From the IMG/VR virus record IMGVR_UViG_3300050033_000285, positions 1-40,617 of that record: a stretch of DNA of 40,617 nt, one strand, 5' to 3'. Positions within the stretch are counted from its first letter, which is position 1; each line of letters opens with the position of its first letter. Of the stretch, positions 3,172 to 36,042 are shown piece after piece. The position numbers were made by a program, and so were the translations under genes. The notes beneath the pieces were generated by a model, which saw only the letters and a list, made by a program, of their open reading frames with translations, did not search any database and had not been told where the DNA came from. The DNA is from a virus.

Positions 3172-3435
3172 ATGGAACCAGCAGCAGAGATCATCAAGCG
3201 CCTGGGCGGCGTCTCCGTAGTAGCCACCATCACCGGCGTTCACCGAACCCGCGTATCCAATTGGAAACGCCCGCGCGCTGTCGGCGGCACTGGCGGGCGC
3301 ATTCCACAGTCTCACCATTTGGCGATCCTTCGAGCGGCTAAGGATCTAGGCATCTCCGACATAACGGCGGAAACCCTGCTTCCCAGGGAGCCATTCGAAA
3401 CCGCCGCCTCCGCCGACGAAGCGAGCGCAGCATGA
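3172..3435 (+). CDS. Cro-like helix-turn-helix regulator
   Basis: An 87-residue protein divergent from cI. A small HTH is visible in EIIKRLGGVSVVATITGVHR followed by the recognition-helix-like TRVSNWKRP. Its position and size fit a Cro-type repressor that favours lytic growth. I chose ATG 3172 over ATG 3163 because the latter overlaps the predicted -10 box and the transcript should start about 3171. The stop overlaps the next start (ATGA), so it heads the early operon. Confidence 0.8.
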   Translation: MEPAAEIIKRLGGVSVVATITGVHRTRVSNWKRPRAVGGTGGRIPQSHHLAILRAAKDLGISDITAETLLPREPFETAASADEASAA

Positions 3436-4709
3436 GCATTCCCTTTCATGCGCTGTCCGAGATTTTTCCGTCGCTCATCGGTCCAGAGTTTGACGCGCTT
3501 GTCGACGATATCCGCGACAACGGCCTTCGCGAACCAATTGTGCTTTTCGACGGCCAGGTTCTCGACGGACGGAATCGCTATCGAGCGTGTCAAGCTGCCG
3601 ATGTCGAGCCGCGCTTTGAGACCTATGAAGGTGATGATCCGGTCAGGTATGTCATCAGCCTCAACCTGAGGCGACGTCACCTTGACGAAAGCCAGCGCGG
3701 GCTTGCGTCGGCGCGACTGGAAAACCTGCCACGGGGGCGCCCCGCAAACAAAGATGCAAATTTGCATGTTTTCGGCGCGGACAGCGATGCCGCCGACGAC
3801 TCGACGGGTATCGAAGACGCCAATTGGGATGAGGTTTTCGAGGATGCCGGCGTCGCGAGAAAGCCTTCGCCAGCGCCGATTGCCCCCGTATCTAGGACGC
3901 AGGCAGCGTCCATGCTCAACGTCTCGGAACGGACGGTTGCAACTGCCGCGAAGGTGCTCAAGGAAGGCGCGCCGGAGTTGGTCACCGCCGTTGAACACGG
4001 CAGAGTTTCCGTATCCGCTGCCGCTGCCATCGCGACCCGTCCGAAGATCGAGCAAGCCGAGATTGTGGCGCTCGACGACGCGGAAATCAAACGGCGCGCG
4101 AAGGCAATCCGTGAACGCGAAACGCAAGAGCGTCGTGAGGCTAATGCCTCCATTGCAAAGCAGCTTGTCGTGCTTCCCGTCGGGAAGGTTTCGACAATTG
4201 TGATCGATCCGCCGTGGCCTATGCAGAAGATCGATCGTGACGTTCGTCCAAACCAAGTCGGCTTCGATTATCCGACGATGAGCGAAGACGAGCTTGTCGC
4301 CTTCCGTGAAACGATCGATGCTGTAAGCGCGGACGATTGCCACCTGTTCATGTGGACGACGCAAAAGTTTCTGCCGGTCGCGTTGCGCCTGCTTAACGCC
4401 TGGGATTTCCGATACGTTCTGACGATGGTCTGGCACAAGCCTGGCGGGTTTCAGCCGATCGGACTGCCTCAATACAACTGCGAATTTGCAGTCTATGCGC
4501 GGCGCGGGTCGCCAGCGTTTGCAGACACCAAAGCCTTCCCGTGCTGCTTCGAAGCGCCGCGTCGCGAGCACTCTCGCAAGCCGGATGAATTCTATGACGT
4601 GATCGCCCGCGTTACTGAGGGCGAGCGCATCGATATTTTCTCGCGCGGGCCACATGAGGGATTCGCGCAGTTTGGCAATGAGGCCGACAAGTTTGCGGGG
4701 GCCGCGTGA
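3432..4709 (+). CDS. ParB-domain / MT-A70 DNA adenine methyltransferase
   Basis: A 425-residue fusion. Residues ~1-90 are ParB/Sulfiredoxin-like (LSEIFPSLIGPEFDALVDDI, PIVLFDGQVLDGRNRYRAC, SLNLRRRHLDESQR). Residues ~155-245 hold a helical HTH-like segment (TQAASMLNVSERTVATAAKV). Residues ~250-410 are MT-A70: DPPW at 259-262, MWTTQKFLPVALRLL, and a conserved REHSRKPDEFYDVI. The family transfers a methyl group from S-adenosylmethionine to N6 of adenine. It is common early in alphaproteobacterial prophages, probably shielding phage DNA or altering regulation. Its ATG overlaps the cro stop and its stop overlaps the next start. Confidence 0.9.
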   Translation: MSIPFHALSEIFPSLIGPEFDALVDDIRDNGLREPIVLFDGQVLDGRNRYRACQAADVEPRFETYEGDDPVRYVISLNLRRRHLDESQRGLASARLENLPRGRPANKDANLHVFGADSDAADDSTGIEDANWDEVFEDAGVARKPSPAPIAPVSRTQAASMLNVSERTVATAAKVLKEGAPELVTAVEHGRVSVSAAAAIATRPKIEQAEIVALDDAEIKRRAKAIRERETQERREANASIAKQLVVLPVGKVSTIVIDPPWPMQKIDRDVRPNQVGFDYPTMSEDELVAFRETIDAVSADDCHLFMWTTQKFLPVALRLLNAWDFRYVLTMVWHKPGGFQPIGLPQYNCEFAVYARRGSPAFADTKAFPCCFEAPRREHSRKPDEFYDVIARVTEGERIDIFSRGPHEGFAQFGNEADKFAGAA

Positions 4710-5910: not shown

Positions 5911-6564
5911 ATGTTGAGGAAAACCTTCTGGACTGGCGAGAACGTCGAGACAATGCGGCGTCTCTGGCTCGACGGGCGATCGGCTAGCTATATCGCCGTA
6001 CTCATCGGCGCGCCGTCGCGCAATGCCGTAATCGGCAAGCTGCATCGCATCGGCCTCAATGGACGGCGCGAAGGGGGCGCCCCGACGGCGAACCACGACA
6101 TCGATCGGAGATGGACGCCTGAGGAAGACGCTAGGGTGGCTGAGATGCGCCGCGCCGGTGCGTCGAGCACGGCCATAGCGAATGCGATAGGTCGAACGGC
6201 GGCGGCTATCTGGTGGCGGCTAAGGTGGAAGGGCATCAAGCCGCCGGTGGTCGGAAAGAACGTATCGGCGGGCGCCGCTAACAGCCTGATGGCTAGGATG
6301 GCCCGGATGCAAAATGTCGCCGTCCTTGCCGCCCGCTTTGAATGCGAGGCCGGCGCGCAGCCGGCGGATGGCGGTATCACGATTGTCGATCTGACAGAGC
6401 GCACATGCCACTGGCCTCTCGGCGATCCGGGCGACCTTCAGACGTTTCGATACTGTGGCGCCAAGAAATCACTCGACGCAGGCCCCTACTGCCGTGCTCA
6501 CCGGAAAATCGCCTATCAGCCAGCTAATCCGCCTACTCGCGCGCGGGGCACCGTCTATGCTTAG
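5911..6564 (+). CDS. gcrA: GcrA-family cell-cycle regulator with second HTH module
   Basis: Residues 1-50 match the GcrA DNA-binding end (TFWTGENVETMRRLWLDGRS, IGAPSRNAVIGKLHRIGLNG). Residues ~175-210 match its C-terminal domain (TCHWPLGDPGDLQTFRYCG, then PYCRAHRKIAYQP). In Caulobacter GcrA binds sigma-70 and GANTC-methylated promoters to control cell-cycle genes. A phage copy could redirect host transcription or act on phage promoters. Between the two ends lies an extra SANT/homeodomain-like segment (RRWTPEEDARVAEMRRAG, IANAIGRTAAAIWWRLRW), which looks like a second copy of the HTH. The start has a strong GGAGG at 5901-5905. The next gene overlaps the end. Confidence 0.9.
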   Translation: MLRKTFWTGENVETMRRLWLDGRSASYIAVLIGAPSRNAVIGKLHRIGLNGRREGGAPTANHDIDRRWTPEEDARVAEMRRAGASSTAIANAIGRTAAAIWWRLRWKGIKPPVVGKNVSAGAANSLMARMARMQNVAVLAARFECEAGAQPADGGITIVDLTERTCHWPLGDPGDLQTFRYCGAKKSLDAGPYCRAHRKIAYQPANPPTRARGTVYA

Positions 6565-10741: not shown

Positions 10742-11943
10742 ACGAACTGCCGCGCTCATGGACCGACTGGATCGCGCGCGCCGAGGCGGTTGACATCGGT
10801 GAGGTCGCGATGCGTCTCGGCGCCAAGCTACGACGCGCAGGGACGGAACTCGTTGGACCATGCCCTTGCGGCGCCGCTACGTCGGACGGTTTCTGTATTA
10901 ACGGTCGCAAAGGCATCTTTTTGTGCCGCCCAAGTGGGGCGTCCGGCAACGTCATCGATATGGCGAGGCATATCCTCGGCTGCGGATTTGCCGAGGCATT
11001 AGAGGCGGTCACCGGCGAGCCGCGCCCCGATCGCTCGCACGACGAAACGCCAGAGGAGCGCGACCGCCGCGCCTCCATGCGAGCCGAGCGCGAGGCCAAG
11101 ATCGCCGAGCAGCGCCGACGCGATGAGATCGACGAACTCAGCCGGCGTCGGCGCGATGAAGAAGCTGTAGCAGAGATCATCGCCCGTGCCGTCCCGATCG
11201 CCGGGACGCATGCCGAGGCCTACCTGCGCGCCCGCGGCCTGACGCCAGCGCGGCGGCTGACGGGCGATCTCAGGTTTGTTGGCGACCTGAACTACTGGGG
11301 CTGGGCCGGCGACGCGACGCGGGCCGACAACCGCAAGGCGATCCTGGCGACGCTGCCGGCCATGGTCGCGATCATTCGCAACGTGGCCGGCGACGTCATC
11401 GGTGTGCATCAGACGTTCCTGGATCCGGTCGAGCCGCGTAAGTGGGCGCCGATAGGCTCGCGTGAGAACGCGTCGAAGAAGGTCCGCGGCGAGGCTCGGG
11501 GCGGGCTGATTAGGCTAGGAATGCTCGGCGACAAGCTGGCGCTGGGCGAGGGCATCTGCACGACGTTTGCGTGGCATGCGCTTGGCCACGGGCCGGAAGA
11601 CATCAGCCTCGCCGCGGCGATCTCGCTCGGCAACATGGCGGGCGGCTGCACCGGGTCTATTGCGCATCGGACGGCGGTCGGCACGAACGGCAAGCCGGTT
11701 ATGGTCCGCAACGGCGTCCCGGACATGGACAAGCCTGGCGTGATCCTGCCCGACGACGTGCGCGAGGTGATCCTCCTCGGCGACGGGGATTCGGACCCGA
11801 TGGCTACCCACGCTGCTGTTGCGACGGCGGGGCGACGCTTCCGCGCGCAGGGGCGGACGGTCGCGGTCCACTGGGCTGGCGCCGGCCTCGACTGGAATGA
11901 CGTTCTCATGCGGCAGCGGGCGGACGTGGAGCGGGCTGCATGA
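10738..11943 (+). CDS. DnaG-like primase with zinc-finger and Toprim domains
   Basis: 401 residues. Residues ~15-90 are the DNA-binding zinc-finger part (GPCPCGAATSDGFCINGRKG, then FLCRPSGASGNVIDMARHIL). The last ligand position reads Ser instead of the usual Cys (CRPSG). Residues ~95-150 are a charged linker. Residues ~150-390 form the Toprim catalytic part: LALGEGICTTFAWHAL supplies the Glu and VILLGDGDSDPMA the Asp-x-Asp metal site. It would synthesise primers for phage replication, with the RepA-like ATPase downstream as likely helicase partner. Confidence 0.85.
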   Translation: MNELPRSWTDWIARAEAVDIGEVAMRLGAKLRRAGTELVGPCPCGAATSDGFCINGRKGIFLCRPSGASGNVIDMARHILGCGFAEALEAVTGEPRPDRSHDETPEERDRRASMRAEREAKIAEQRRRDEIDELSRRRRDEEAVAEIIARAVPIAGTHAEAYLRARGLTPARRLTGDLRFVGDLNYWGWAGDATRADNRKAILATLPAMVAIIRNVAGDVIGVHQTFLDPVEPRKWAPIGSRENASKKVRGEARGGLIRLGMLGDKLALGEGICTTFAWHALGHGPEDISLAAAISLGNMAGGCTGSIAHRTAVGTNGKPVMVRNGVPDMDKPGVILPDDVREVILLGDGDSDPMATHAAVATAGRRFRAQGRTVAVHWAGAGLDWNDVLMRQRADVERAA

Positions 11944-26347: not shown

Positions 26348-27388
26348 ATGACTCTCTCGGTCAGCAATCTCGGGGACAACCCGCAGCAGCCGACTTACAT
26401 CGCGGACGCCTACATCCCGGATCAGCTAATTGCCGGGCACCTTCATCTCGTGACGGACGGCGCCGCAACACTCACTGGTAGCGCCGCGCTTCAGCGCGGG
26501 ACTGTGCTCGGCCGCGTGACCGAGAGTACCGCTGTCGCGACTGCCGGCAAGGCGTTCGCCTCCGGCACGATCGTCGTCGCCGCCATTCCGACCAGCGGCG
26601 ACACCGTCACCGTCGACGGGACCGTCTACACGTTCTCCACCCCTCCGGGGACGTATCAGGAAAATATGTTCAGCGGCGCGACGGTTTATCTGCAATCGAC
26701 CACGGCGCTCTGCGCTCAGGCGTTCATCCAGGCACTCCAAGCCGCGAGCGACTCCTACACCACGCTGATGACCTATTCGCTGAGCGGTTCGACGATCACC
26801 GCAACGTCGAAGATTCCTGGGACCGGCGGTAACGGCTACACACTCGCGACTTCGGCCGCCGCGCACTTCACGGTTCCCGCCACTCTCACTGGCGGCACCA
26901 ACAATACCGGCACCTCGAGCGTGGGCAGCATATCGCTCGGCCTCAAGGCGCAGATTGGCAACTACACGATGGCCCTGGCCACGACCAGTCAAACGTCAGC
27001 CTTTACGGTGTACGATCCGTCGGGCGAGGTGGTTGGCACCGGCGCTGTGGGTACGGCTTTCACCGACGCGCAGATCAACTTCACGATCACCGCGGGCGGC
27101 ACAGCGACGGCGGCCGACGCTTTCGTCATCACTGTGGGGCAGAGCACCGGGTCGTTCAAGCTGGCGGTGGGTTCTGCTGTGGACGGCAGCCAGATCCCGG
27201 CGGCCATCCTTGTCGACTATACCGACGCTTCCGCCGGCGACGTGAATTGCGGCGTCTATCTCATGGGCGAGTTCAACGGTAACGCGCTGATCTACGACCC
27301 GAGCCTCTCGTTGGCGGCGATCAAAACCGCGCTCCGCCCGCTCGGCATCCACATCAAGAACGTCGTCTCGGCTTCCGACCCGAGCTGA
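26348..27388 (+). CDS. Head decoration protein with inserted beta-rich domain
   Basis: 346 residues, roughly three times lambda gpD. Residues 1-60 (YIADAYIPDQLIAGHLHLVT...LQRGTVLGRVTES) are the gpD-like start, and the C-terminus (PAAILVDYTDASAGDVNCGV, YLMGEFNGNALIYDP) is the gpD-like end. Residues ~61-188 are an inserted domain (ASGTIVVAAIPTSGDTVTVD, then TPGTGGNGY-type and TLTGGTNNTG strands) seen again in the sheath protein. Decoration proteins bind capsid three-fold sites and stabilise the packed head. AAAGGAA precedes the ATG. Confidence 0.85.
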   Translation: MTLSVSNLGDNPQQPTYIADAYIPDQLIAGHLHLVTDGAATLTGSAALQRGTVLGRVTESTAVATAGKAFASGTIVVAAIPTSGDTVTVDGTVYTFSTPPGTYQENMFSGATVYLQSTTALCAQAFIQALQAASDSYTTLMTYSLSGSTITATSKIPGTGGNGYTLATSAAAHFTVPATLTGGTNNTGTSSVGSISLGLKAQIGNYTMALATTSQTSAFTVYDPSGEVVGTGAVGTAFTDAQINFTITAGGTATAADAFVITVGQSTGSFKLAVGSAVDGSQIPAAILVDYTDASAGDVNCGVYLMGEFNGNALIYDPSLSLAAIKTALRPLGIHIKNVVSASDPS

Positions 27389-27422
27389 TTCCACCCCCTC
27401 TTTCCTGAAGTCCTGAACCGAT

Positions 27423-27470
27423 CCCACCGGGCGCCGGCCGCCAGGGGACCTCCACATACGGAGAATCCCT
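27423..27470 (+). promoter_or_regulatory. Capsid/sheath/tube RNA element, copy 1 (major capsid leader)
   Basis: A 25-nt core (27423-27447) with centre GGCG-CCGGC-CGCC folds as a hairpin. A second stem pairs CTCC (27450-27453) with the Shine-Dalgarno GGAG (27460-27463), and AGGG (27443-27446) can pair with CCCT (27467-27470) directly before the ATG. The AGGGG can alternatively pair with the 5' CCC of the core, so two exclusive folds are possible. Confidence 0.75.
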
Positions 27471-28547
27471 ATGGCTGGCCCTGCTACCGGTACCCTGATT
27501 TACGACACAAATACCCTCATTCAGGTTGTCCCCAATCTGAAGCGTCCGACGTCGTTCCTCCTCGACAAGTTCTTCCCGAATATCGTCACGTCGGACACGG
27601 AGTTTGTGTCGATCGACATCGATGTCGGCAAGCGCCGCATGGCGCCGTTCGTCTCGCCTCTCGTTGAAGGCAAGCTCGTCGAGCAGCGTCGCATCCAGAC
27701 GAACATCTTCAAGCCCGCCTATATCAAGGACAAGCGCGCGCCGGATCTGCGCAAGCCCGTTCGCCGCATGATCGGCGAGCGGATCGGCGGCGACATGACC
27801 GGCGCCGAGCGTGAGATGGCCAATCTCGAGTTCGAGATGACCGATCAGATGGACATGATCACTCGCCGGCTCGAATGGATGGCCGCGTCGGCGTTGCTCA
27901 ACGGCAGTGTCACGGTGGCTGGCGAGGGATTCCCGACGGTCGTTGTGGACTTCTTGCGCGACCCGGCGCTCACTGTCGCAAAGACGTCAACGGCAAAATG
28001 GACGGCGGCCAACGTCGTCGCCGGCAATGCGTCCCCAACGACGGACATCGAAGCGTGGCAGCGCCAGGCTCTGAAATCGTCCGGCGCCGTGGTGGACAAC
28101 CTGATCTTCACCACATCGTCGTGGCTCGGATTTATCGCCGATCCGTTGCTGAAGGGCGCGATCTTCTATCCGCGTCTCGGCGAAGCCGGCAACACTGTCG
28201 ACCCCGGCGCGCAGATCGATCGGGGCGGCGTGTTCAAAGGGAAGTGGGGCCAGTACAACCTCTGGGTCTACAACGAGTGGTACGTCAACGACACGACGAA
28301 CGTTGAAACGCCCATGCTCGCTGACGGCTCTGTCCTGATGTCGGGACAAGCGATGATGGGCACGCGCGCATTCGGCATGATTATGGACCCGTATTTCACC
28401 TACGCTTCGTTGCCCTTCGCACCGAAGACCTGGGTGACGGAAGATCCGGCGCAACGCCTGATCCTCATGCAGTCGAGCCCGATTGTGATTCCCTCGCGCG
28501 TCAACGCCTGCGTCGGCGCCACGGTGTGCGACCCGGTGTACACCTAA
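27471..28547 (+). CDS. Major capsid protein, lambda gpE family
   Basis: 358 residues of the Phage_cap_E family: LIYDTNTLIQVVPNLKRPTS, LLDKFFPN, VSIDIDVGKRRMAPFVSPLV, then APDLRKPVRRMIGERIGGDM and the C-terminal VNDTTNVETPMLADGSVLMS, AFGMIMDPY and SSPIVIPSRVNACV. It builds the icosahedral shell with the HK97 fold. It follows an 82-nt intergenic leader holding copy 1 of the RNA element. Confidence 0.95.
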   Translation: MAGPATGTLIYDTNTLIQVVPNLKRPTSFLLDKFFPNIVTSDTEFVSIDIDVGKRRMAPFVSPLVEGKLVEQRRIQTNIFKPAYIKDKRAPDLRKPVRRMIGERIGGDMTGAEREMANLEFEMTDQMDMITRRLEWMAASALLNGSVTVAGEGFPTVVVDFLRDPALTVAKTSTAKWTAANVVAGNASPTTDIEAWQRQALKSSGAVVDNLIFTTSSWLGFIADPLLKGAIFYPRLGEAGNTVDPGAQIDRGGVFKGKWGQYNLWVYNEWYVNDTTNVETPMLADGSVLMSGQAMMGTRAFGMIMDPYFTYASLPFAPKTWVTEDPAQRLILMQSSPIVIPSRVNACVGATVCDPVYT

Positions 28548-28611
28548 TCTGCCCGTCCACTGAACCTCTTCGCGGCGAGGATTACGCCGCGAAAACCATG
28601 GAGTAGCCGTG

Positions 28612-28926
28612 ATGGCTGAAGAGCAAAGAGAAAAGATGGTCCGCGCGACCGTGGCGCAAGGCCATACGATCGAGGGGCCAGTCGAGGGCAAGAAGAGGGT
28701 CGTCGGATATTTCCCCGGCTCCGATGGAACGCCCGGCACCGGCCGTCCAGTCGAGGTTGCAGAAGTGCGTGCTTATGGCCCCGGCGAGGAAGTCATGCTG
28801 ACTGCCTCAGACGTGTCACACTTACGCCTGACAGGGCATCTCGTCGACCCCGACAAGAAAGCGCCGAATTATGGGCCCGGCCCATCCTTCAATCGAGACG
28901 TCGCGCCAAGCGCTGGCGCGGCCTGA
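28612..28926 (+). CDS. Head-region protein, hypothetical
   Basis: 104 residues from ATG 28612 with GGAG eight bases upstream; GTG 28609 is an alternative. The sequence is polar (ATVAQGHTIEGPVEGKKRVV, EVRAYGPGEEVMLTASDVSH) with a flexible Pro/Gly tail. It occupies the slot of lambda FI, between capsid and gpFII, but shows no clear likeness to FI. Confidence 0.65.
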   Translation: MAEEQREKMVRATVAQGHTIEGPVEGKKRVVGYFPGSDGTPGTGRPVEVAEVRAYGPGEEVMLTASDVSHLRLTGHLVDPDKKAPNYGPGPSFNRDVAPSAGAA

Positions 28927-28936
28927 TTAACGCCTG

Positions 28937-29260
28937 ATGTCGATCGATTTTGAACGGCTCGTCCTCGGCCCCTGCGAGGATACCTTTGCTGTTCCGATCA
29001 CGATCACCCCGACGCGATCGATCCCTAATGCGGGGTCTTATCGCGCTCGGGGGATCTGGACGTCGCGGACGGTCGAGATCCCCATGGATGACGGAACTGT
29101 CATCCGGTCGAACGACATGAACGTCGGCATCAAGATTGTGGAGTTTCCGGCACTGCCGATGAAGAACGACGGGCTGCTCGTCAACGGCGTGAACTACACG
29201 ATCTACGATGTGCAGATAGACGGTCAGGGCGGCGCCAAGCTGGTGGTCAAAAACGCATGA
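28937..29260 (+). CDS. Head-tail joining protein, gpFII-like
   Basis: 107 residues of the lambda gpFII group: FERLVLGPCEDTFAVPITIT near the start, RGIWTSRTVEIPMDDGTVIR, and VNGVNYTIYDVQIDGQGGAK. It would sit on the portal-bound connector and receive the tail. Coupled to the next gene by a four-base overlap. Confidence 0.8.
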   Translation: MSIDFERLVLGPCEDTFAVPITITPTRSIPNAGSYRARGIWTSRTVEIPMDDGTVIRSNDMNVGIKIVEFPALPMKNDGLLVNGVNYTIYDVQIDGQGGAKLVVKNA

Positions 29261-30075
29261 GCAGCCAGGCCGCCGTCATTAGGGATGCGCTGCTGGCGCT
29301 TCTCTCGCCCTCGATGTCCGGCATCGTGACGACGACGAAGGCATCCGTCGACACTCTCGAAGAGGCCGACCTGCCGGCGCTCTGCGTCGTCGCCGCGCGC
29401 AACAGGGCCGAGCGGGATTCGCCTGGTGACCTGGTCGGCGAGCCCTACCTGCGCAACGAGGCGAACATCGTCGTCACGGTGCGCGACAAGGCGACGACGC
29501 GCGATGCAATCGCCGCGCAGCTCGACGCATGGATCGACACCATCAAGAGCGTGACGTTGACGGCCTCGCGTAATGACGCCGCGCCGACGACCGGAGCGAC
29601 AGGTCTTGGCGCTGCCTTTGTCGACACCAACGAGGGAATCCTCTCGGTCGAGGAAGCCCAGGAAATGTCGCCAAAGGACGGCGGCTTTTTCTTCGGCAAC
29701 GCCCACGTTCTCTTCGTGATGCAGTATCACGAAACTTGGCCGCCTTACGTGCCTGACGCCTTCACGACGTTGGGCGTCACCGTCTTGCCGGCCGACGATC
29801 TCGCGGCTGCGGTCATTCCAGATGTTGCCGTCTTCACCGCCTCGATCGCCGGCAATGTGATGATAGTCAGCGACGTTGCCGTTGGAGCGCTTCAGCCATT
29901 CCTGGTGATTTCCGATACGGACGGAAATGTCGAGCCAGGGACGATCATCACCGAGATTGATCCGAGCGCTGCAGGCGGCCCTGGGGTCTACACGGTGAAC
30001 CATTCTCAGACCGTCGCTTCCGAGGAAATGACGGCCGATCAGGCGCTCACCGCCGAGTTCACAATCGCCTCATAG
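29257..30075 (+). CDS. Tail terminator-like protein with extra C-terminal domain
   Basis: 272 residues. The first ~170 (AAVIRDALLALLSPSMSGIV, LPALCVVAARNRAERDSP, YLRNEANIVVTVRDKATTRD) look like a minor tail protein U / tail terminator. Residues ~185-265 are an added beta domain (FTASIAGNVMIVSDVAVGAL, GTIITEIDPSAAGGPGVYTV then NHSQTV) of a kind I remember from many phage structural proteins (pattern G-x-YTVN-x-SQTV). The extension probably decorates the neck surface. Confidence 0.7.
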   Translation: MSSQAAVIRDALLALLSPSMSGIVTTTKASVDTLEEADLPALCVVAARNRAERDSPGDLVGEPYLRNEANIVVTVRDKATTRDAIAAQLDAWIDTIKSVTLTASRNDAAPTTGATGLGAAFVDTNEGILSVEEAQEMSPKDGGFFFGNAHVLFVMQYHETWPPYVPDAFTTLGVTVLPADDLAAAVIPDVAVFTASIAGNVMIVSDVAVGALQPFLVISDTDGNVEPGTIITEIDPSAAGGPGVYTVNHSQTVASEEMTADQALTAEFTIAS

Positions 30076-30084
30076 GAGGACCAC

Positions 30085-30306
30085 ATGATCTTCGTCAAAG
30101 CCGCGCCTGGGATGAAACTGAAGCATCCTTCGCTGCACGCCTCGCAGACGCATTTGCCAGAGAGCGGCGCCTACTGGCCCGACGACGCTTTCACCCATCG
30201 CCGCATTCGCGACGGGGGCGTTGTGGCCGTAGAGCCGTCCGCCGATCCGCCCGCCGCGCCAGATGCGCCTCCTGCCATCCGGCCCCGATCGACGACCTAT
30301 CGGTGA
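30085..30306 (+). CDS. DUF2635 tail protein, Mu-like
   Basis: 73 residues: FVKAAPGMKLKHPSLHAS, LPESGAYWPDDAFTHRRIRD and GGVVAVEP match DUF2635, found directly before the sheath gene in Mu-like phages. AGGAGG precedes the ATG. Exact role unknown. Confidence 0.85.
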   Translation: MIFVKAAPGMKLKHPSLHASQTHLPESGAYWPDDAFTHRRIRDGGVVAVEPSADPPAAPDAPPAIRPRSTTYR

Positions 30307-30560
30307 CTGCCGCCGCCATGGGCGAAACCTTCCCGGCCGAATATGTCCGCGAGCTGCGGAATGAGAACAAACGCCGGCGCCTGCGCGTCATCGATCTTGA
30401 AGAGGCGCTGATCGCAAAGGAAATCGCGATCGAGGCTGATCGCCAGGGGCTCTCACAGGATCTCATTGAGCAGGTCCAAACCCTCATGGTCGTCGTCGGC
30501 GATAAGGGCGTTGTCCACGGCGCACGAGAGGCTGTCTTGTTCGTAAAGGCCCGCCAGTAG
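30303..30560 (+). CDS. Small helical protein before the sheath gene
   Basis: 85 residues from GTG 30303, which overlaps the DUF2635 stop (GTGA); ATG 30318 is an alternative. Charged helices (YVRELRNENKRRRLRVIDLE, EALIAKEIAIEADRQGL). No family recognised. Confidence 0.55.
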   Translation: MTAAAMGETFPAEYVRELRNENKRRRLRVIDLEEALIAKEIAIEADRQGLSQDLIEQVQTLMVVVGDKGVVHGAREAVLFVKARQ

Positions 30561-30609
30561 GCATCGGCCTAGCGGCCAATTAACCAGGGCTCCCCGCCCG
30601 CCATCATCA

Positions 30610-30658
30610 CCCACCGGGCGCCGGCCGCCAGGGGTTCCGCAAAAAAGGAACACCCCTG
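30610..30658 (+). promoter_or_regulatory. Capsid/sheath/tube RNA element, copy 2 (sheath leader)
   Basis: The 25-nt core (30610-30634) is identical to copy 1. The second stem pairs TTCC (30635-30638) with the Shine-Dalgarno GGAA (30647-30650) and AGGGG (30630-30634) with CCCCT (30653-30657), leaving only CA unpaired. Loop and stem bases differ from copy 1 but pairing is kept. Confidence 0.75.
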
Positions 30659-32620
30659 ATGAGCATCAGTTTCCCCTCGTTTCCGTCCGGCTGGCGCCTT
30701 CCTCTCTTTTGGGCCGAGATCGATCCTTCGCAGGCCGGCGGCGGCGGCAACCCAAACCTGCCCGCTCTTCTCGTCGGCCAGATCCTCTCCTCGGGAAGCG
30801 TGTCATCCGGCATTCCGTCCGCGGTCGGCGTGCCGATCGCCGTTGGCTCCCCGGCGATGGCGATCAGCTATTTTGGCGCCGGCTCGATGCTCGCCGACAT
30901 GTGCAGCATATTCTTCGGGATTAATCCTGCCGCTGAGCTGTTCTGTCTTCCGATTGCCGATTCTGGTGTCGGATCGGCGGCGACCGCAACGTTCACCGAG
31001 GCAACGAACAAGAACTTTCTGGCGACCGACACAATCACGATCGGCAACCAGACCTTCAACTTCGTTTCGACCATCGGGTCCACGGCGGGCAACATCCTGG
31101 TCAGCGCTAACACCAACGCCGGCTTCGCCGCGACGATGGTCAACATCATTGCATCGATGGCTGCTTCGATCAGCGGCAGCGGTGCGACGGCGAACTACGT
31201 CCCGTGTGCGACGCCCAGCAACGTCTCTGGTTCCATCGCGGCGGGCAACGGCCTCACCTCCGGCCAGACCTGCATTTTCACGGCCCTCACCGGCGGATCG
31301 GCCGGGAATTCCCTCGCTTCGACCTATACCGACACGGGCGGCGTTTCGGCCGGCTCGTTCGGCTCCACGACCTTCTCGGGCGGCGGCTCCGGCGCCGGCG
31401 TCAAGGCGACTGGTTCGATCACGATCGCCTCAGCCGCTTCGGACGCCGGGGTCCTGACGATCTACATCGCCGGCCAGCCGGTCCAGATCTCGGTCGCGAC
31501 GACGGACGCTACGAGCGTCGTGGCGGCTAATCTCACGGCCGCCATCACCGCTATGACAAGCCTGCCCGTCTCTGCGGTCCAGGTGGCAAACGCAGTCAAC
31601 CTGACCTGCCTATGGAGCGGCGTGACCGGCAACGATATCCAGATCCAGCCGAACTACCTCGGTTCGCAGAACGACGAATTTATGCCTACCGGCATGAGCG
31701 TTACAATCGTCGCGATGGCGAATGGGGCCGGGACGCCGAACTGGTCGGCGCCGATCAGCAACCTCGGCGACGATGTCTATTACTACACCGGCATGCCCTA
31801 CACGGACACGGCCAGCCTGAGGGCTTGGGACACGGAGTACGGCTTCACCTCGTCGGGCCGCTGGGGATGGCTGCGCCAGCTCTACGGGAACGTCTACAGC
31901 GCGATCCGCGGCAGCTATTCGACGCTGATCAGCTGGGGACCGACGGGAAATTCCGGGGTCGAGAGCGTGATGGGCGTCGAGACCTCAAGCCCATCCCCAG
32001 TGTGGGAGTGGACCGCGGCCTACACCGCCCAGGCGATGCAGGGCTTTTCGGAAGATCCGGCGCGACCGCTGCAAACCCTCGAGCTCACAGGCATCCTGCC
32101 GGCGCTCAAGCCGGATCGGTGGACCAAGGCCGAGGCCAACGCCCTCGCCGGCGTCGGCGTCGCCGTCCAGATGCGGGGGCCAAACGGCTACCCGGTGATC
32201 ATGATCGAAGCCACGCGCTACCAGGTGAACTCGTTCGGCACGCCGGATATCGCCTACAATCTGGTGACCACGCTGACGACGCTCGCTGCGTTGCTGATGG
32301 CGATGAAGTCGGCAATTACGTCGAAATATCCGCGCTCCAAACTGGCTGACGACGGGACGAACTTCGCCACCGGCCAGGCGATCGTCACCCCAAAGTCGAT
32401 CCGCGGCGAAATCATCTCGGAATACCTGCTCGCGGAATACAACGGCCTGGTCGAGGACGACGCCACGTTCGGCAAGAACCTGGTGGTCGAACGCAGCAGC
32501 ACCAACCCGAACCGCGTCGATGTGCTCTATCCGCCAAATCTGATCGGGCAATTGCGCATCTTCGCCGTGCTCGCCCAGTTCCGACTGCTCGGTTCGTCGG
32601 CGCAGCCGATCTCGGTCTAA
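30659..32620 (+). CDS. Tail sheath protein, Mu gpL-like, with inserted domain
   Basis: 653 residues. Mu gpL-like start (LFWAEIDPSQAGGGGNPNLP, ALLVGQIL), followed by AVGSPAMAISYFGAGSMLAD and FGINPAAELFCLPIAD. The typical centre includes VLTIYIAGQPVQISVATTDA and GVTGNDIQIQPNY; the C-terminus has NLVTTLTTLAALLMAMKSAI and NPNRVDVLYPPNLIGQLRIF. Residues ~104-245 are an insertion (TDTITIGNQTFNFVS...TALTGGSAGNSLAS) resembling the one in the decoration protein. The sheath contracts to drive the tube into the cell. Confidence 0.92.
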   Translation: MSISFPSFPSGWRLPLFWAEIDPSQAGGGGNPNLPALLVGQILSSGSVSSGIPSAVGVPIAVGSPAMAISYFGAGSMLADMCSIFFGINPAAELFCLPIADSGVGSAATATFTEATNKNFLATDTITIGNQTFNFVSTIGSTAGNILVSANTNAGFAATMVNIIASMAASISGSGATANYVPCATPSNVSGSIAAGNGLTSGQTCIFTALTGGSAGNSLASTYTDTGGVSAGSFGSTTFSGGGSGAGVKATGSITIASAASDAGVLTIYIAGQPVQISVATTDATSVVAANLTAAITAMTSLPVSAVQVANAVNLTCLWSGVTGNDIQIQPNYLGSQNDEFMPTGMSVTIVAMANGAGTPNWSAPISNLGDDVYYYTGMPYTDTASLRAWDTEYGFTSSGRWGWLRQLYGNVYSAIRGSYSTLISWGPTGNSGVESVMGVETSSPSPVWEWTAAYTAQAMQGFSEDPARPLQTLELTGILPALKPDRWTKAEANALAGVGVAVQMRGPNGYPVIMIEATRYQVNSFGTPDIAYNLVTTLTTLAALLMAMKSAITSKYPRSKLADDGTNFATGQAIVTPKSIRGEIISEYLLAEYNGLVEDDATFGKNLVVERSSTNPNRVDVLYPPNLIGQLRIFAVLAQFRLLGSSAQPISV

Positions 32621-32645
32621 CCTAAAATATTCAACTGAATTAAGA

Positions 32646-32692
32646 CCCACCGGGCGCTGGCCGCCAGGGGTCGTTCCAAGAGGAACTTCCCC
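32646..32692 (+). promoter_or_regulatory. Capsid/sheath/tube RNA element, copy 3 (tube leader)
   Basis: Core at 32646-32670 differs from the other copies by one base, in the predicted loop (CTGGC for CCGGC). The second stem pairs GTTCC (32673-32677) with GGAAC (32682-32686), containing the Shine-Dalgarno, across an AAGA loop, and GGGG (32667-32670) with CCCC (32689-32692). Confidence 0.75.
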
Positions 32693-33061
32693 ATGGCACA
32701 GAGAATCGCAGGCGTTGCTTATTTGAAAGTTGACGGGGTCCAATACGCTTTGCGCGGCAATTTCACCGTCAGCCCGTCATTGCTTGAACGGCAAATGCTC
32801 GCCGGGCAGGACGGTGTTCATGGATACACAGAAATGCCGCGCGTTCCCTTCATCGAAGGGGACATTTCGTTGCAGCCCGGGTTCTCTCTGACGGACGCTG
32901 AAGATATCACCAATTCTACCATTACGGGTGAATTGGCGAACGGTAGCACCTATACGCTGGTGAATGCTACGACGACGGCCGCGTACTCAATCAATACTAA
33001 GGAAGGGCTGACTCACATCAGGTGGGAAGGCATGAATTCCAACGAGTCTGTCGGCGGTTAA
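32693..33061 (+). CDS. Tail tube protein, Mu gpM-like
   Basis: 122 residues of the Tail_tube family: RIAGVAYLKVDGVQYALRGN, FTVSPSLLERQMLAGQDGVH, GYTEMPRVPFIEGDIS. Hexameric rings of this protein form the inner tube. It follows the sheath gene as in Mu and has copy 3 of the RNA element as leader. Confidence 0.92.
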   Translation: MAQRIAGVAYLKVDGVQYALRGNFTVSPSLLERQMLAGQDGVHGYTEMPRVPFIEGDISLQPGFSLTDAEDITNSTITGELANGSTYTLVNATTTAAYSINTKEGLTHIRWEGMNSNESVGG

Positions 33062-33092
33062 TCCGTCACCCGCCTAGCTAAAGGAGGCCTCG

Positions 33093-33419
33093 ATGGCCAG
33101 CGAAGATCGCAAGGAAGACACCGCGAGCGACGGCGAGTTTGTCGTCATCAAACTCACCAAGCCGATCAAGGCGCACGGGGAAACCCTCGAAGAGATCAAG
33201 TGCCGCGCGCCGACGGCGGCCGACATCATCCAGATCGGCAACCCGGTGATCTACGAGTTCATGATCGACGGGCGGCCTCGGATCACTTACGACGACGGCC
33301 GCATGGCGCGGATGATCTCGCTGCTCGGCGGGGTTCCCCCATCTTCAGTTGCGCAGATGTCGCCGCGTGAATTCGTTTCGGCGTGCTGGATTATGCGCGA
33401 TTTTTTTCTCCCGGCGTAG
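33093..33419 (+). CDS. Tail assembly chaperone, Mu gp41-like (short form)
   Basis: 108 residues: FVVIKLTKPIKAHGETLEEI, CRAPTAADIIQIGNPV, SLLGGVPPSSVAQMSPREFV match Phage_tail_E/gp41. Chaperones of this group bind the tape measure and are made in two lengths. The gene ends shortly after a T7 slippery run; a -1 shift there adds a second domain. AAAGGAGG precedes the ATG. Confidence 0.88.
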   Translation: MASEDRKEDTASDGEFVVIKLTKPIKAHGETLEEIKCRAPTAADIIQIGNPVIYEFMIDGRPRITYDDGRMARMISLLGGVPPSSVAQMSPREFVSACWIMRDFFLPA

Positions 33420-33562
33420 TCGAGGGCGCCGTGAACTCGGCCTTAAAATTGGCGATGATTTTTCATTGCAGTCCCTTCGACGTTTTGGCCCAGCCGGTTC
33501 GCGTGGTCGACGAAGTGCTTAGGGCCACAAACGCCCTTCTCGCAGAAATGGCGGATGACTGA
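33093..33562 (+). CDS. Tail assembly chaperone, long form made by -1 frameshift
   Basis: Ribosomes slipping back one base at T33401-33407 would read on as DFFSPGVVEGAVNSALKL, AMIFHCSPFDVLAQPVR, and end ATNALLAEMADD with TGA at 33560-33562, overlapping the tape-measure ATG. The product is about 156 residues. This mirrors the frameshifted chaperone pair before the tape measure in P2, Mu and lambda. The extension has no good independent ribosome binding site. Confidence 0.7.
33401..33431 (+). promoter_or_regulatory. Programmed -1 frameshift signal
   Basis: Heptamer T TTT TTT in the zero frame (33401-33407), then after a four-base spacer a possible hairpin CGGCG (33412-33416) with CGCCG (33427-33431), ten-base loop. 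Confidence 0.65.
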
Positions 33563-36042
33563 TGGCCAACGATCTCCGCCTCTCGGCAGTCGTCGAAGAT
33601 AAATTTTCAGCGCCGCTGAAGAAACTGCAAGAGCAGCTGACACAAGTCGGCGGGCGCGAACACGCGACGCGCATCGGAGAACAGGCCACCGCGTTCAAAA
33701 AAGCGCATGAGGAAGTCGGAAAATTTGGCGCCCAGCTCAAGGGCGTTCTCGCACCTGCCCTCGACGCGGCCGGCCTTTCGATGCTCGGGATCGGGGGCGG
33801 CCTCGCCGGCATGGTCGCTGGGATAAATAACGCGAGCACGTCGCTGAACGGCCTGCGTCGCCTGTCGGCGACGCTTCAGGTCCCGGCCCAGTTCATCAAA
33901 GATCAAGAGGCCCTTTTCCAGCGCTTCGGCATAGGCGCTGATGAGGTCGACAAATTTCTGCAACACGCGCAAGACGCCTTCCGCGACTTCAAAAAAGGTC
34001 TCGGCGAGTTCCACGCCGCCCTCGCCGATATCGACCCGAAGGAAGCGGGCCGCATGATGGGCATGGATACTTTGCCTGCGGCGGTCCAGGAATATGAGCG
34101 ATATCTGAATTCGATCAAGGACCCGACGCGGCGCGCGCGCATGGCGGCGCTGTTCCTCGACGATGAAGCCGGGCGAGAAATTGGGACCGTCACTCGCCAG
34201 CAGTTCGATACAATCGTCAAGGAGACGCAAGACGGCGCGGCCCGGGTGACGCAGGCCGACCAGGACGCCGCAGCGGATTGGGAAAAGTCATGGGATAAAT
34301 TCAAGAATTCCTTGGAGACCACGCGGAACACGATAGCGCCCCCCGTTATGTCCGCTGCGACATTTGCCTTACAAGGGTTCCCATACCAACCCGAAGAGGC
34401 CAAGAACGCCGCGGATATCGAGAAGAAGGCCAGCGACGCTTACAAGGCGAACGGCGGCGAATGGGGTGAAATCCAACAGACCGCGAAGGGATGGTGGAAC
34501 CGCGGTAAGGACTGGTGGAACAGCAGCCCAGCACCGCCTTTTACGTCGGCCGCTCAAGCCGTATCCAAATCGATGACGAGTCCTTCCTGGGGGGATATGC
34601 CGGCCGCCGGCAGTTTTAAGAATTCTCTCGAGGCGGCGCCAAACGACCCGAGCGGATTTTTCATCCCGCCGGGCGACGACAGCACCTCAAAGGAAAAGCA
34701 GACAGGGCTGCAAAAGACGATCCAGAGCACCGCAATCCTGTTGAGCCTACGCGACGTCAGCATCGACGCCGAGCGGCGCATCTCGGAATGGTGGCGCAAA
34801 GGAATAGCCGCGGGGATCAGCGGTGCGCTCAATCCCGACACGCTGGAATCGCAGGCCGCGGCGGCGTCACTGGAGAGTGTGAACAATCCCGGCGGATATC
34901 GCTCGGTCTATGGCCCGGCAGGATCGCCGCCCCCGTCGTCGAACAACCCCGCCGTGCGATCCCCCGGGGGCGGCGGCCTGACCGGCGCCGGTGCGGCGGG
35001 CTATCGGCAGGTCTATGAGGCGGCCAAGGCGGCTGGCGATCCCTATCCCGAGGTCACAGCCGCGCAGTGGGCCAACGAGTCCGGGTGGGGCGCGCATCCC
35101 TCGGGCAAGAACAATTTCTTCGGCCAGACCGCGCCCGGTGGCGGCTTTGTTGATTACCCGACACCGGAGGCCGGGCTTGCCGACCATTTGAGGCGGTGGA
35201 CAAATTTTCCCGACTATCAGAGCGCGAAAACGCCCGAGGAAGCGCTTCAGGCTAAGATTCGACACGGCTACAATCAGAACGCCGAATACCCTGGCCGCGT
35301 CATGGCCGCGATGAAGGCCGGCGAACAATCGCGCAAATCTGTCTCGGCGTTCGCTATGCCGAGCGGACCTGGCAGCCTTGCGCCGAGCGACACGCAAATC
35401 GTCGGCGGCGCTAACCTCATGTCGAGCGGCGAGTTCGAGAGAAAGACAGGCATTCATCCGACCGTCGGCGGCGATCTTGTCCAGGTCAAGACGGCCGGGG
35501 GCCATACTTTCACGGTCAACAAATACGGCGCCGCAAATTTCAAGGCGTTTGTCGAAGACCTGGAGGGCAGGGGCTACAAGTTCAATGGCGACCCGCAGGG
35601 CTACAACCCGCGCAGCAAGTTTGGTGGAGGCGGCCCGTCCGAGCACGCCTACGGCAACGCGATTGACATCAATCCCGGGGCTAATCCGTACACCCATGAC
35701 GTGAACCGGCCATTGCAGACCGACCTGCCCCCCGACGTTTCTGCCCTTGCGGCCAAATACGGCCTGTCGTGGGGAGGCGACTGGAGGAGCGTCAAAGACG
35801 CGATGCATTTCGAATATCGCGGCTCGCCATGGACTCCCAATACCGCGAAGACGGGCGCAGTCGATCGGGCAATCGGCGCGCAGAGCTTTCTCCAAGGCGG
35901 CGGGATGGGCGCCAACGGTGTCGTCCATATCAATTTGCACGGCAACCTGCGCGACGTGAACGCCACGACAAAGATCGCCGGCGGCCTGTTCAAGAAGGTC
36001 AATCTGAACCGCGGCGAGACGATGCCGAGCGCGACGGGGTAA
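33562..36042 (+). CDS. Tape measure protein with two peptidoglycan-hydrolase domains
   Basis: 826 residues. The N-terminal ~470 form the tape: LRLSAVVEDKFSAPLKKLQE, a hydrophobic stretch SMLGIGGGLAGMVAG, then long helices. Residues ~475-590 are a FlgJ-type glucosaminidase domain (EVTAAQWANESGWGAHPSGK, NNFFGQTAPGG). Residues ~645-757 are an M15/VanY-like peptidase with probable zinc ligands His695 and Asp702 in SEHAYGNAIDI and His749 in DAMHFEY. The tape sets tail length and is ejected first, so both domains could cut the cell wall during DNA entry. The start overlaps the frameshift stop. Confidence 0.88.
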   Translation: MANDLRLSAVVEDKFSAPLKKLQEQLTQVGGREHATRIGEQATAFKKAHEEVGKFGAQLKGVLAPALDAAGLSMLGIGGGLAGMVAGINNASTSLNGLRRLSATLQVPAQFIKDQEALFQRFGIGADEVDKFLQHAQDAFRDFKKGLGEFHAALADIDPKEAGRMMGMDTLPAAVQEYERYLNSIKDPTRRARMAALFLDDEAGREIGTVTRQQFDTIVKETQDGAARVTQADQDAAADWEKSWDKFKNSLETTRNTIAPPVMSAATFALQGFPYQPEEAKNAADIEKKASDAYKANGGEWGEIQQTAKGWWNRGKDWWNSSPAPPFTSAAQAVSKSMTSPSWGDMPAAGSFKNSLEAAPNDPSGFFIPPGDDSTSKEKQTGLQKTIQSTAILLSLRDVSIDAERRISEWWRKGIAAGISGALNPDTLESQAAAASLESVNNPGGYRSVYGPAGSPPPSSNNPAVRSPGGGGLTGAGAAGYRQVYEAAKAAGDPYPEVTAAQWANESGWGAHPSGKNNFFGQTAPGGGFVDYPTPEAGLADHLRRWTNFPDYQSAKTPEEALQAKIRHGYNQNAEYPGRVMAAMKAGEQSRKSVSAFAMPSGPGSLAPSDTQIVGGANLMSSGEFERKTGIHPTVGGDLVQVKTAGGHTFTVNKYGAANFKAFVEDLEGRGYKFNGDPQGYNPRSKFGGGGPSEHAYGNAIDINPGANPYTHDVNRPLQTDLPPDVSALAAKYGLSWGGDWRSVKDAMHFEYRGSPWTPNTAKTGAVDRAIGAQSFLQGGGMGANGVVHINLHGNLRDVNATTKIAGGLFKKVNLNRGETMPSATG

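Follow-up and report, generated by a model that had tools for sequence, protein, structure and literature searches.

A covarying hairpin RNA in the leaders of phage capsid, sheath and tube genes

The repeated leader element and its genes

The IMG/VR virus record IMGVR_UViG_3300050033_000285, analyzed here over a stretch of 40,617 nucleotides (nt) that is termed the window, carries a 25-nt block, CCCACCGGGCGCYGGCCGCCAGGGG, in three plus-strand copies at positions 27423-27447, 30610-30634 and 32646-32670. The copies occupy short intergenic gaps within the head-to-tail gene run and precede, on the same strand, the genes for the major capsid protein (27471..28547; Phage_cap_E, E-value 3e-61), the tail sheath protein (30659..32620; phrog_165, E-value 2e-146) and the tail tube protein (32693..33061; PF10618, E-value 4e-31). 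The sole difference among the three copies is a C/T exchange at position 2 of a hairpin loop. A search that allowed up to three mismatches detected no further match in the window (chance mean 0.15; one of 100 shuffled sequences reached three), and a scan of the window with a calibrated covariance model returned the three known sites and no fourth. A preliminary description of this DNA had placed the block at these three sites and nowhere else in the window, and had proposed a hairpin core with a change confined to the loop; both points were borne out.

The structure nevertheless proved larger than described, as the block sits inside a 29-nt hairpin whose outer stem pairs bases beyond the core and covaries. 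The hairpin conforms to a 29-nt family definition (model R1) that comprises an outer stem (P1), an internal loop AYCG/AG, an inner stem (P2) of the form GGNN/NNCC and a pentaloop CNGRC. P1 in the window copies has 4-5 bp and P2 has 4 bp. The capsid copy (27421..27449, plus strand) forms P1 between 27422-27425 and 27445-27448 (UCCC/GGGA) and P2 between 27430-27433 and 27439-27442 (GGCG/CGCC), with the internal loop ACCG/AG and the loop CCGGC. The sheath copy (30608..30636, plus strand) has P1 ACCC/GGGU, P2 GGCG/CGCC and the loop CCGGC, and the tube copy (32644..32672, plus strand) has a 5-bp P1, GACCC/GGGUC, with P2 GGCG/CGCC and the loop CUGGC. Thus, P1 covaries even among the three window copies. 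Gaps of 23, 24 and 22 nt separate the 25-nt block from the ATG of the capsid, sheath and tube genes, respectively. The copies scored 41.0-43.6 bits with model R1 (E-values 3e-8 to 5e-9, the copies themselves being in the model) and the tube copy had the top score of 43.6 bits.

No promoter-like site, defined as appropriately spaced -35 and -10 elements of the sigma-70 type, was found in 27200-33600, and no intrinsic terminator with a GC-rich stem and a direct T run was called at the three sites or just downstream. The bases right after the element are GGGGAC (capsid), GGGGTT (sheath) and GGGGTC (tube), without a T run. The copies had been said to precede exactly the three most abundant virion proteins. 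Capsid, sheath and tube genes do follow the copies, but the claim is slightly overstated as a head-decoration gene (26348-27388, plus strand; PF02924) that lies upstream of the capsid gene lacks the element, and its product also is expected to be present in high copy in the virion. The head-decoration protein possesses an N-terminal extension of ~240 residues ahead of a lambda D-like domain.

Distribution and covariation of the element

All three copies are present in a near-identical contig (97% DNA identity over 7.5 kb). No element was found in capsid relatives with 66-78% capsid identity (L006-L084) or in the sheath and tube relatives L085 and L086. The nearest capsid relative, contig L417, was found by pattern and is 89% identical in the capsid, 73% in the portal and 65-69% in the decoration and protease proteins. 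It carries UUCC-AUCG-GGCG-CCGGC-CGCC-AG-GGGA upstream of its Phage_cap_E capsid gene. As 27 of the 29 bases match the window element amid a leader that has diverged, the block itself must be the target of selection. Copies before sheath and tube genes have so far been seen only in the window lineage.

Searches with motif patterns in which stem and loop positions were unconstrained, followed by removal of chance matches, yielded about 30 distinct versions of the element in public viral contigs. These versions share a geometry of P1 (3-5 bp), AYCG, P2 (4 bp), a 5-nt loop, AG and P1′. Across carriers, the element is in sense orientation and about 22-49 nt separate it from the start codon; nearly all relatives that were found by motif are 24-46 nt upstream of a coat gene of PHROG 1357 (phrog_1357), a protein for which Pfam gives no link to the Phage_cap_E capsid of the window. 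Significant copies were detected in 14 of 15 whole phage records that were searched, almost all as a single copy before the coat gene. Contig L099 bears two tandem copies on the minus strand (11049-11135) in an integrase-side intergenic region that is not followed by a coat gene; the copies directly precede a terminator-like hairpin and their loop, CCTGC, departs from CNGRC. A broader pattern with a variable loop produced mostly chance matches and only those with fixed geometry were retained; L420, in which the match is a tRNA-like 3′ arm, and L394, in which P2 is broken, were dropped as chance.

Bacterial genomes were scanned in three sets, namely 299 genomes from each of the orders to which the Acidocella genome G004 and the Luteibacter assembly G001 belong, and 398 genomes of the phylum. 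Among the 398 genomes, the fixed-geometry pattern matched only in the Luteibacter assembly, in the leaders of two prophage coat genes; with a pattern this rare, most of the 41 viral contigs that have it cannot be chance matches. The scan as a whole gave these two prophage copies plus three marginal covariance-model matches, with no convincing copy outside prophages in ~1,000 bacterial genomes. The same hairpin was not found in annotated isolate phages with a coat match (Komagataeibacter phiKX1/2 and Streptomyces Kromp, the leader of Kromp being uninspected); the phiKX1 coat leader has a different hairpin. Plasmids gave no match to the coat.

Pairing was assessed most cleanly in 31 distinct elements that were retrieved by a pattern which left the tested positions free. 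The two free P2 positions form pairs in 30/31 and 31/31 elements, where permutation gives means of 15.1 and 17.2; in P1, pair 3 forms in all 31 (permuted mean 24.8). Pairs 4 and 5 of P1, at 15/31 and 10/31, show no excess over chance. In an alignment of 19 sequences, part of which were selected with stem criteria and which therefore provides the less clean test, 88.9% of cells pair, and 38 double changes (15.2 in shuffles) are distributed over 7/9 pairs. The covariation score of 0.552 compares with 0.153 after shuffling (0/500), and partners that were slid along the alignment gave at most 0.116. A covariance model and folding with RNAalifold had both been proposed in the preliminary description: the model recovered the three window sites together with independent finds in other phages, and RNAalifold unaided recovered 8/9 pairs of the same structure. 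The element therefore is an RNA whose structure is kept through compensatory changes; it is present in other phages and is almost certainly conserved by selection at the RNA level. The positions A6, C8, G10, G11, C21, A23 and G24, which make up the greater part of the internal loop together with the adjoining pairs, are invariant in alignment A3, which points to recognition by something rather than to a plain stem.

Further hairpins occupy the same position in other phages. The capsid leaders of L007 and L010 have a hairpin of similar layout and unrelated sequence (GCGCC-CTGG-CTC..GAG-AC-GGCGC). Other PHROG 1357 coat genes have CCCC-GUGA-GUC-CNGAC-GAC-GA-GGGG or CCC-GACA-GCC-CUGGU-GGC-GA-GGG, with a few double changes and the same CNGRY loop. 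These hairpins, types b and c (L231 and L243 groups), were undetected by model R1 and so are possible relatives only. In PHROG 1357 coat leaders of L231, L228, L225 and L234, the type b strand GTGAGTCCTG shares 8-11 nt of complementarity with the Shine-Dalgarno (SD) region CAGGACTCACG just upstream of the ATG, which suggests a different route to masking of the SD.

Leader pairing, candidate partners and competing explanations

The window leaders can form a further, downstream helix, P3. P3 spans 27444..27470 in the capsid leader (GGGGA/UCCCU around CUCC/GGAG; -12.5 kcal/mol, z -2.5), 30629..30658 in the sheath leader (CAGGGGU..ACCCCUG around UCC/GGA; -16.5 kcal/mol, z -4.4) and 32667..32692 in the tube leader (GGGG/CCCC around GUUCC/GGAAC; -15.7 kcal/mol, z -3.9), in each case on the plus strand and with the SD inside; the z-scores compare the isolated fold with shuffled sequences. 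P1 and P3 compete for the GGGG strand and are mutually exclusive in all three leaders. The P1/P2 hairpins have energies of -11.6, -11.4 and -13.7 kcal/mol for capsid, sheath and tube, respectively, which P3 matches or surpasses. The 29-nt hairpin alone is no more stable than shuffled sequences and the support for P1/P2 accordingly is covariation, not energy. Thus, in the window phage the GGGG can pair with either of two partners but not with both, as had been suggested from the sequence, and a switch is plausible.

Across 27 leaders, the GGGG-side strand of the hairpin pairs with downstream CCCC above shuffled expectation (z 3.9, p<0.001). The 5′ strand of P2, used as a control, gave z -0.4, and the loop plus the P2 3′ strand gave a weaker signal (z 2.5). 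A helix that encloses the SD is clear, among 29 leaders, only in the three of the window, in L417 and in the lineages of L145, L215, L219 and L239 (z -1.3 to -4.3). The second stem that the preliminary description had proposed to tie up the SD consequently exists in all three window leaders, but not as a rule of the family, and the SD switch is best viewed as a lineage feature superimposed on a more general hairpin. The setting of this switch in the window phage by a trans-acting factor is likely, and the factor perhaps is host-derived.

A phage-encoded partner was sought among proteins common to the carriers. No protein is shared by the window and all five other carrier contigs, which are 43-48 kb and possibly incomplete (tblastn, 1e-4); window proteins matched were a cytosine methylase in one contig and an HNH endonuclease in two. 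With no likely phage partner in common, a host partner is favored, and a widespread host factor is more likely than a phage protein. The carriers span at least two bacterial classes, as they include the Luteibacter assembly and the window phage, for which an alphaproteobacterial host is very likely because the window encodes a GcrA-like cell-cycle regulator (5911-6564, plus strand). GcrA is associated with Alphaproteobacteria. The window also encodes an MT-A70 methylase (3432-4709).

Post-transcriptional control of the virion genes is likely on these sequence comparisons. In the preferred reading, to which we assign an even chance, the element is a cis-acting structured leader RNA and a trans-acting partner holds P1 and frees the SD for high-level synthesis of virion proteins. 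The partner would recognize the internal loop and pentaloop and keep P1 closed. In the window phage and a few others, closure of P1 would bar the GGGG from the CCC adjacent to the start codon, P3 would be prevented and the SD would be free, such that the abundant virion proteins might be made together, at high level and late in infection. Where P3 leaves the SD uncovered, the bound hairpin may serve mainly as a 5′ leader that favors translation or stability. The simplest view that we infer for the partner is a conserved host factor, or the translation or decay machinery itself; both the host partner and the P1-versus-SD switch are partly supported hypotheses. Several results weigh against the scheme. 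Family-wide sequestration of the SD was rejected, as the mean unpaired probability of the SD is 0.31 compared to 0.305 in shuffles. Folds that include the coding sequence prefer structures other than P1/P2, so that a trans-acting factor or co-transcriptional folding must be assumed, and the spacing from element to ATG is variable.

The element may instead mark an mRNA segment boundary, where a hairpin between cistrons protects the processed 5′ end downstream (or the 3′ end upstream) and, with no switch involved, raises the mRNA levels of capsid, sheath and tube. This account is rather unlikely but is kept alive by the Phage_cap_E relatives that lack the element (L006-L084), in which 35/62 distinct capsid leaders and 28/58 tube leaders have, at the same place and directly ahead of the start codon, a hairpin that resembles a terminator and includes a T run; shuffled leaders had none. 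The element may substitute for this hairpin, and its location in short gaps of the head-to-tail run without a promoter-like site fits a processed message. However, a plain stabilizing hairpin does not need an invariant A, YCG, AG and CNGRC, the element lacks a T run, and sheath leaders of the same relatives seldom have the hairpin (4/55). Terminator-like hairpins at this position, together with the existence of RNA antiterminators in phages, also would suit an antitermination RNA that acts in cis by modifying RNA polymerase, in the manner of HK022 put. We regard this as very improbable as the element is a single 29-nt hairpin that adjoins each start codon rather than the operon start, and no terminator is predicted just downstream of the three sites.

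A recognition-type hairpin with conserved internal loop and pentaloop ahead of a coat gene also resembles the operator of a phage-encoded RNA-binding repressor, akin to autogenous control by the coat proteins of single-stranded RNA (ssRNA) phages. This is improbable: one capsid protein cannot account for the sheath and tube copies or for two unrelated capsid families, and the five carrier contigs lack homologues of window proteins other than the methylase and HNH enzyme. A signal in DNA, such as a transcription factor site or a recombination or packaging sequence, might be read from the imperfect dyad, and near-identical copies could aid recombination between genes. Covariation has largely refuted this idea, which we consider scarcely credible: compensatory changes occur at free positions, G-U pairs in P2 argue against a DNA cruciform, and the element has a fixed sense orientation before genes. 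Extending the preferred reading of a partner-bound leader RNA, it is possible, although on the doubtful side, that the element is a mobile, structure-specific RNA of unrelated tailed phages through which a conserved bacterial factor licenses late virion translation by the P1-versus-SD switch, and that the window phage spread it to three genes, co-ordinating head and tail output. The element would represent a novel family of structured RNA, associated with the virion genes of phages without a detectable common regulator, making the partner a findable target. The leaders would offer a compact test system for the post-transcriptional control by which tailed phages keep capsid, sheath and tube proteins in large, fixed ratios, and the covariance model could be used to annotate dark viral contigs.

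Comparison with known systems

The preliminary description knew of no element of this kind, and no described equivalent emerged here. The whole window gave no match to Rfam 15 at the gathering threshold, searches in E-value mode with the sheath leader and the L231 leader gave weak sub-threshold matches only, and the open literature searched yielded no description of a motif like this, which is not proof of absence. Leader RNA also sets the output of phage genes at the T4 gp32 and RegA operators and in the T7 gene 10 leader, the latter likewise ahead of a major capsid gene. These are single systems rather than a motif common to unrelated phages, and to our knowledge no sequence or structural match to them is evident. 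In ssRNA phages, the coat operator is a recognition hairpin that is bound by the coat protein. The operators of MS2, PP7 and Q-beta resemble the element in that they are small hairpins, lie close to a start codon and present unpaired bases for recognition. They differ in fold and sequence and precede the replicase gene, whereas the element occurs in tailed double-stranded DNA phages and precedes the coat gene and, with several leaders in the window phage, sheath and tube genes.

The start-associated sequences (SAS) and extended SAS (ESAS) of cluster K mycobacteriophages also are short repeated phage motifs just upstream of several start codons. SAS is a conserved block that holds the SD (AGGAG) at the position of the ribosome-binding site, and ESAS consists of imperfect inverted repeats of 17 bp, separated by a spacer whose length varies, mostly from 4 to 13 bp; the function of both is unproven (PMC3203893). 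The window element does not belong with either as it holds no SD, ends 22-24 nt before the ATG and has stems of 4-5 and 4 bp. Across carriers, the element lies 22-49 nt upstream of the start codon, its loop is fixed at 5 nt, its internal loop is conserved and its covariation is strong, and the genes that follow it are almost without exception virion genes.

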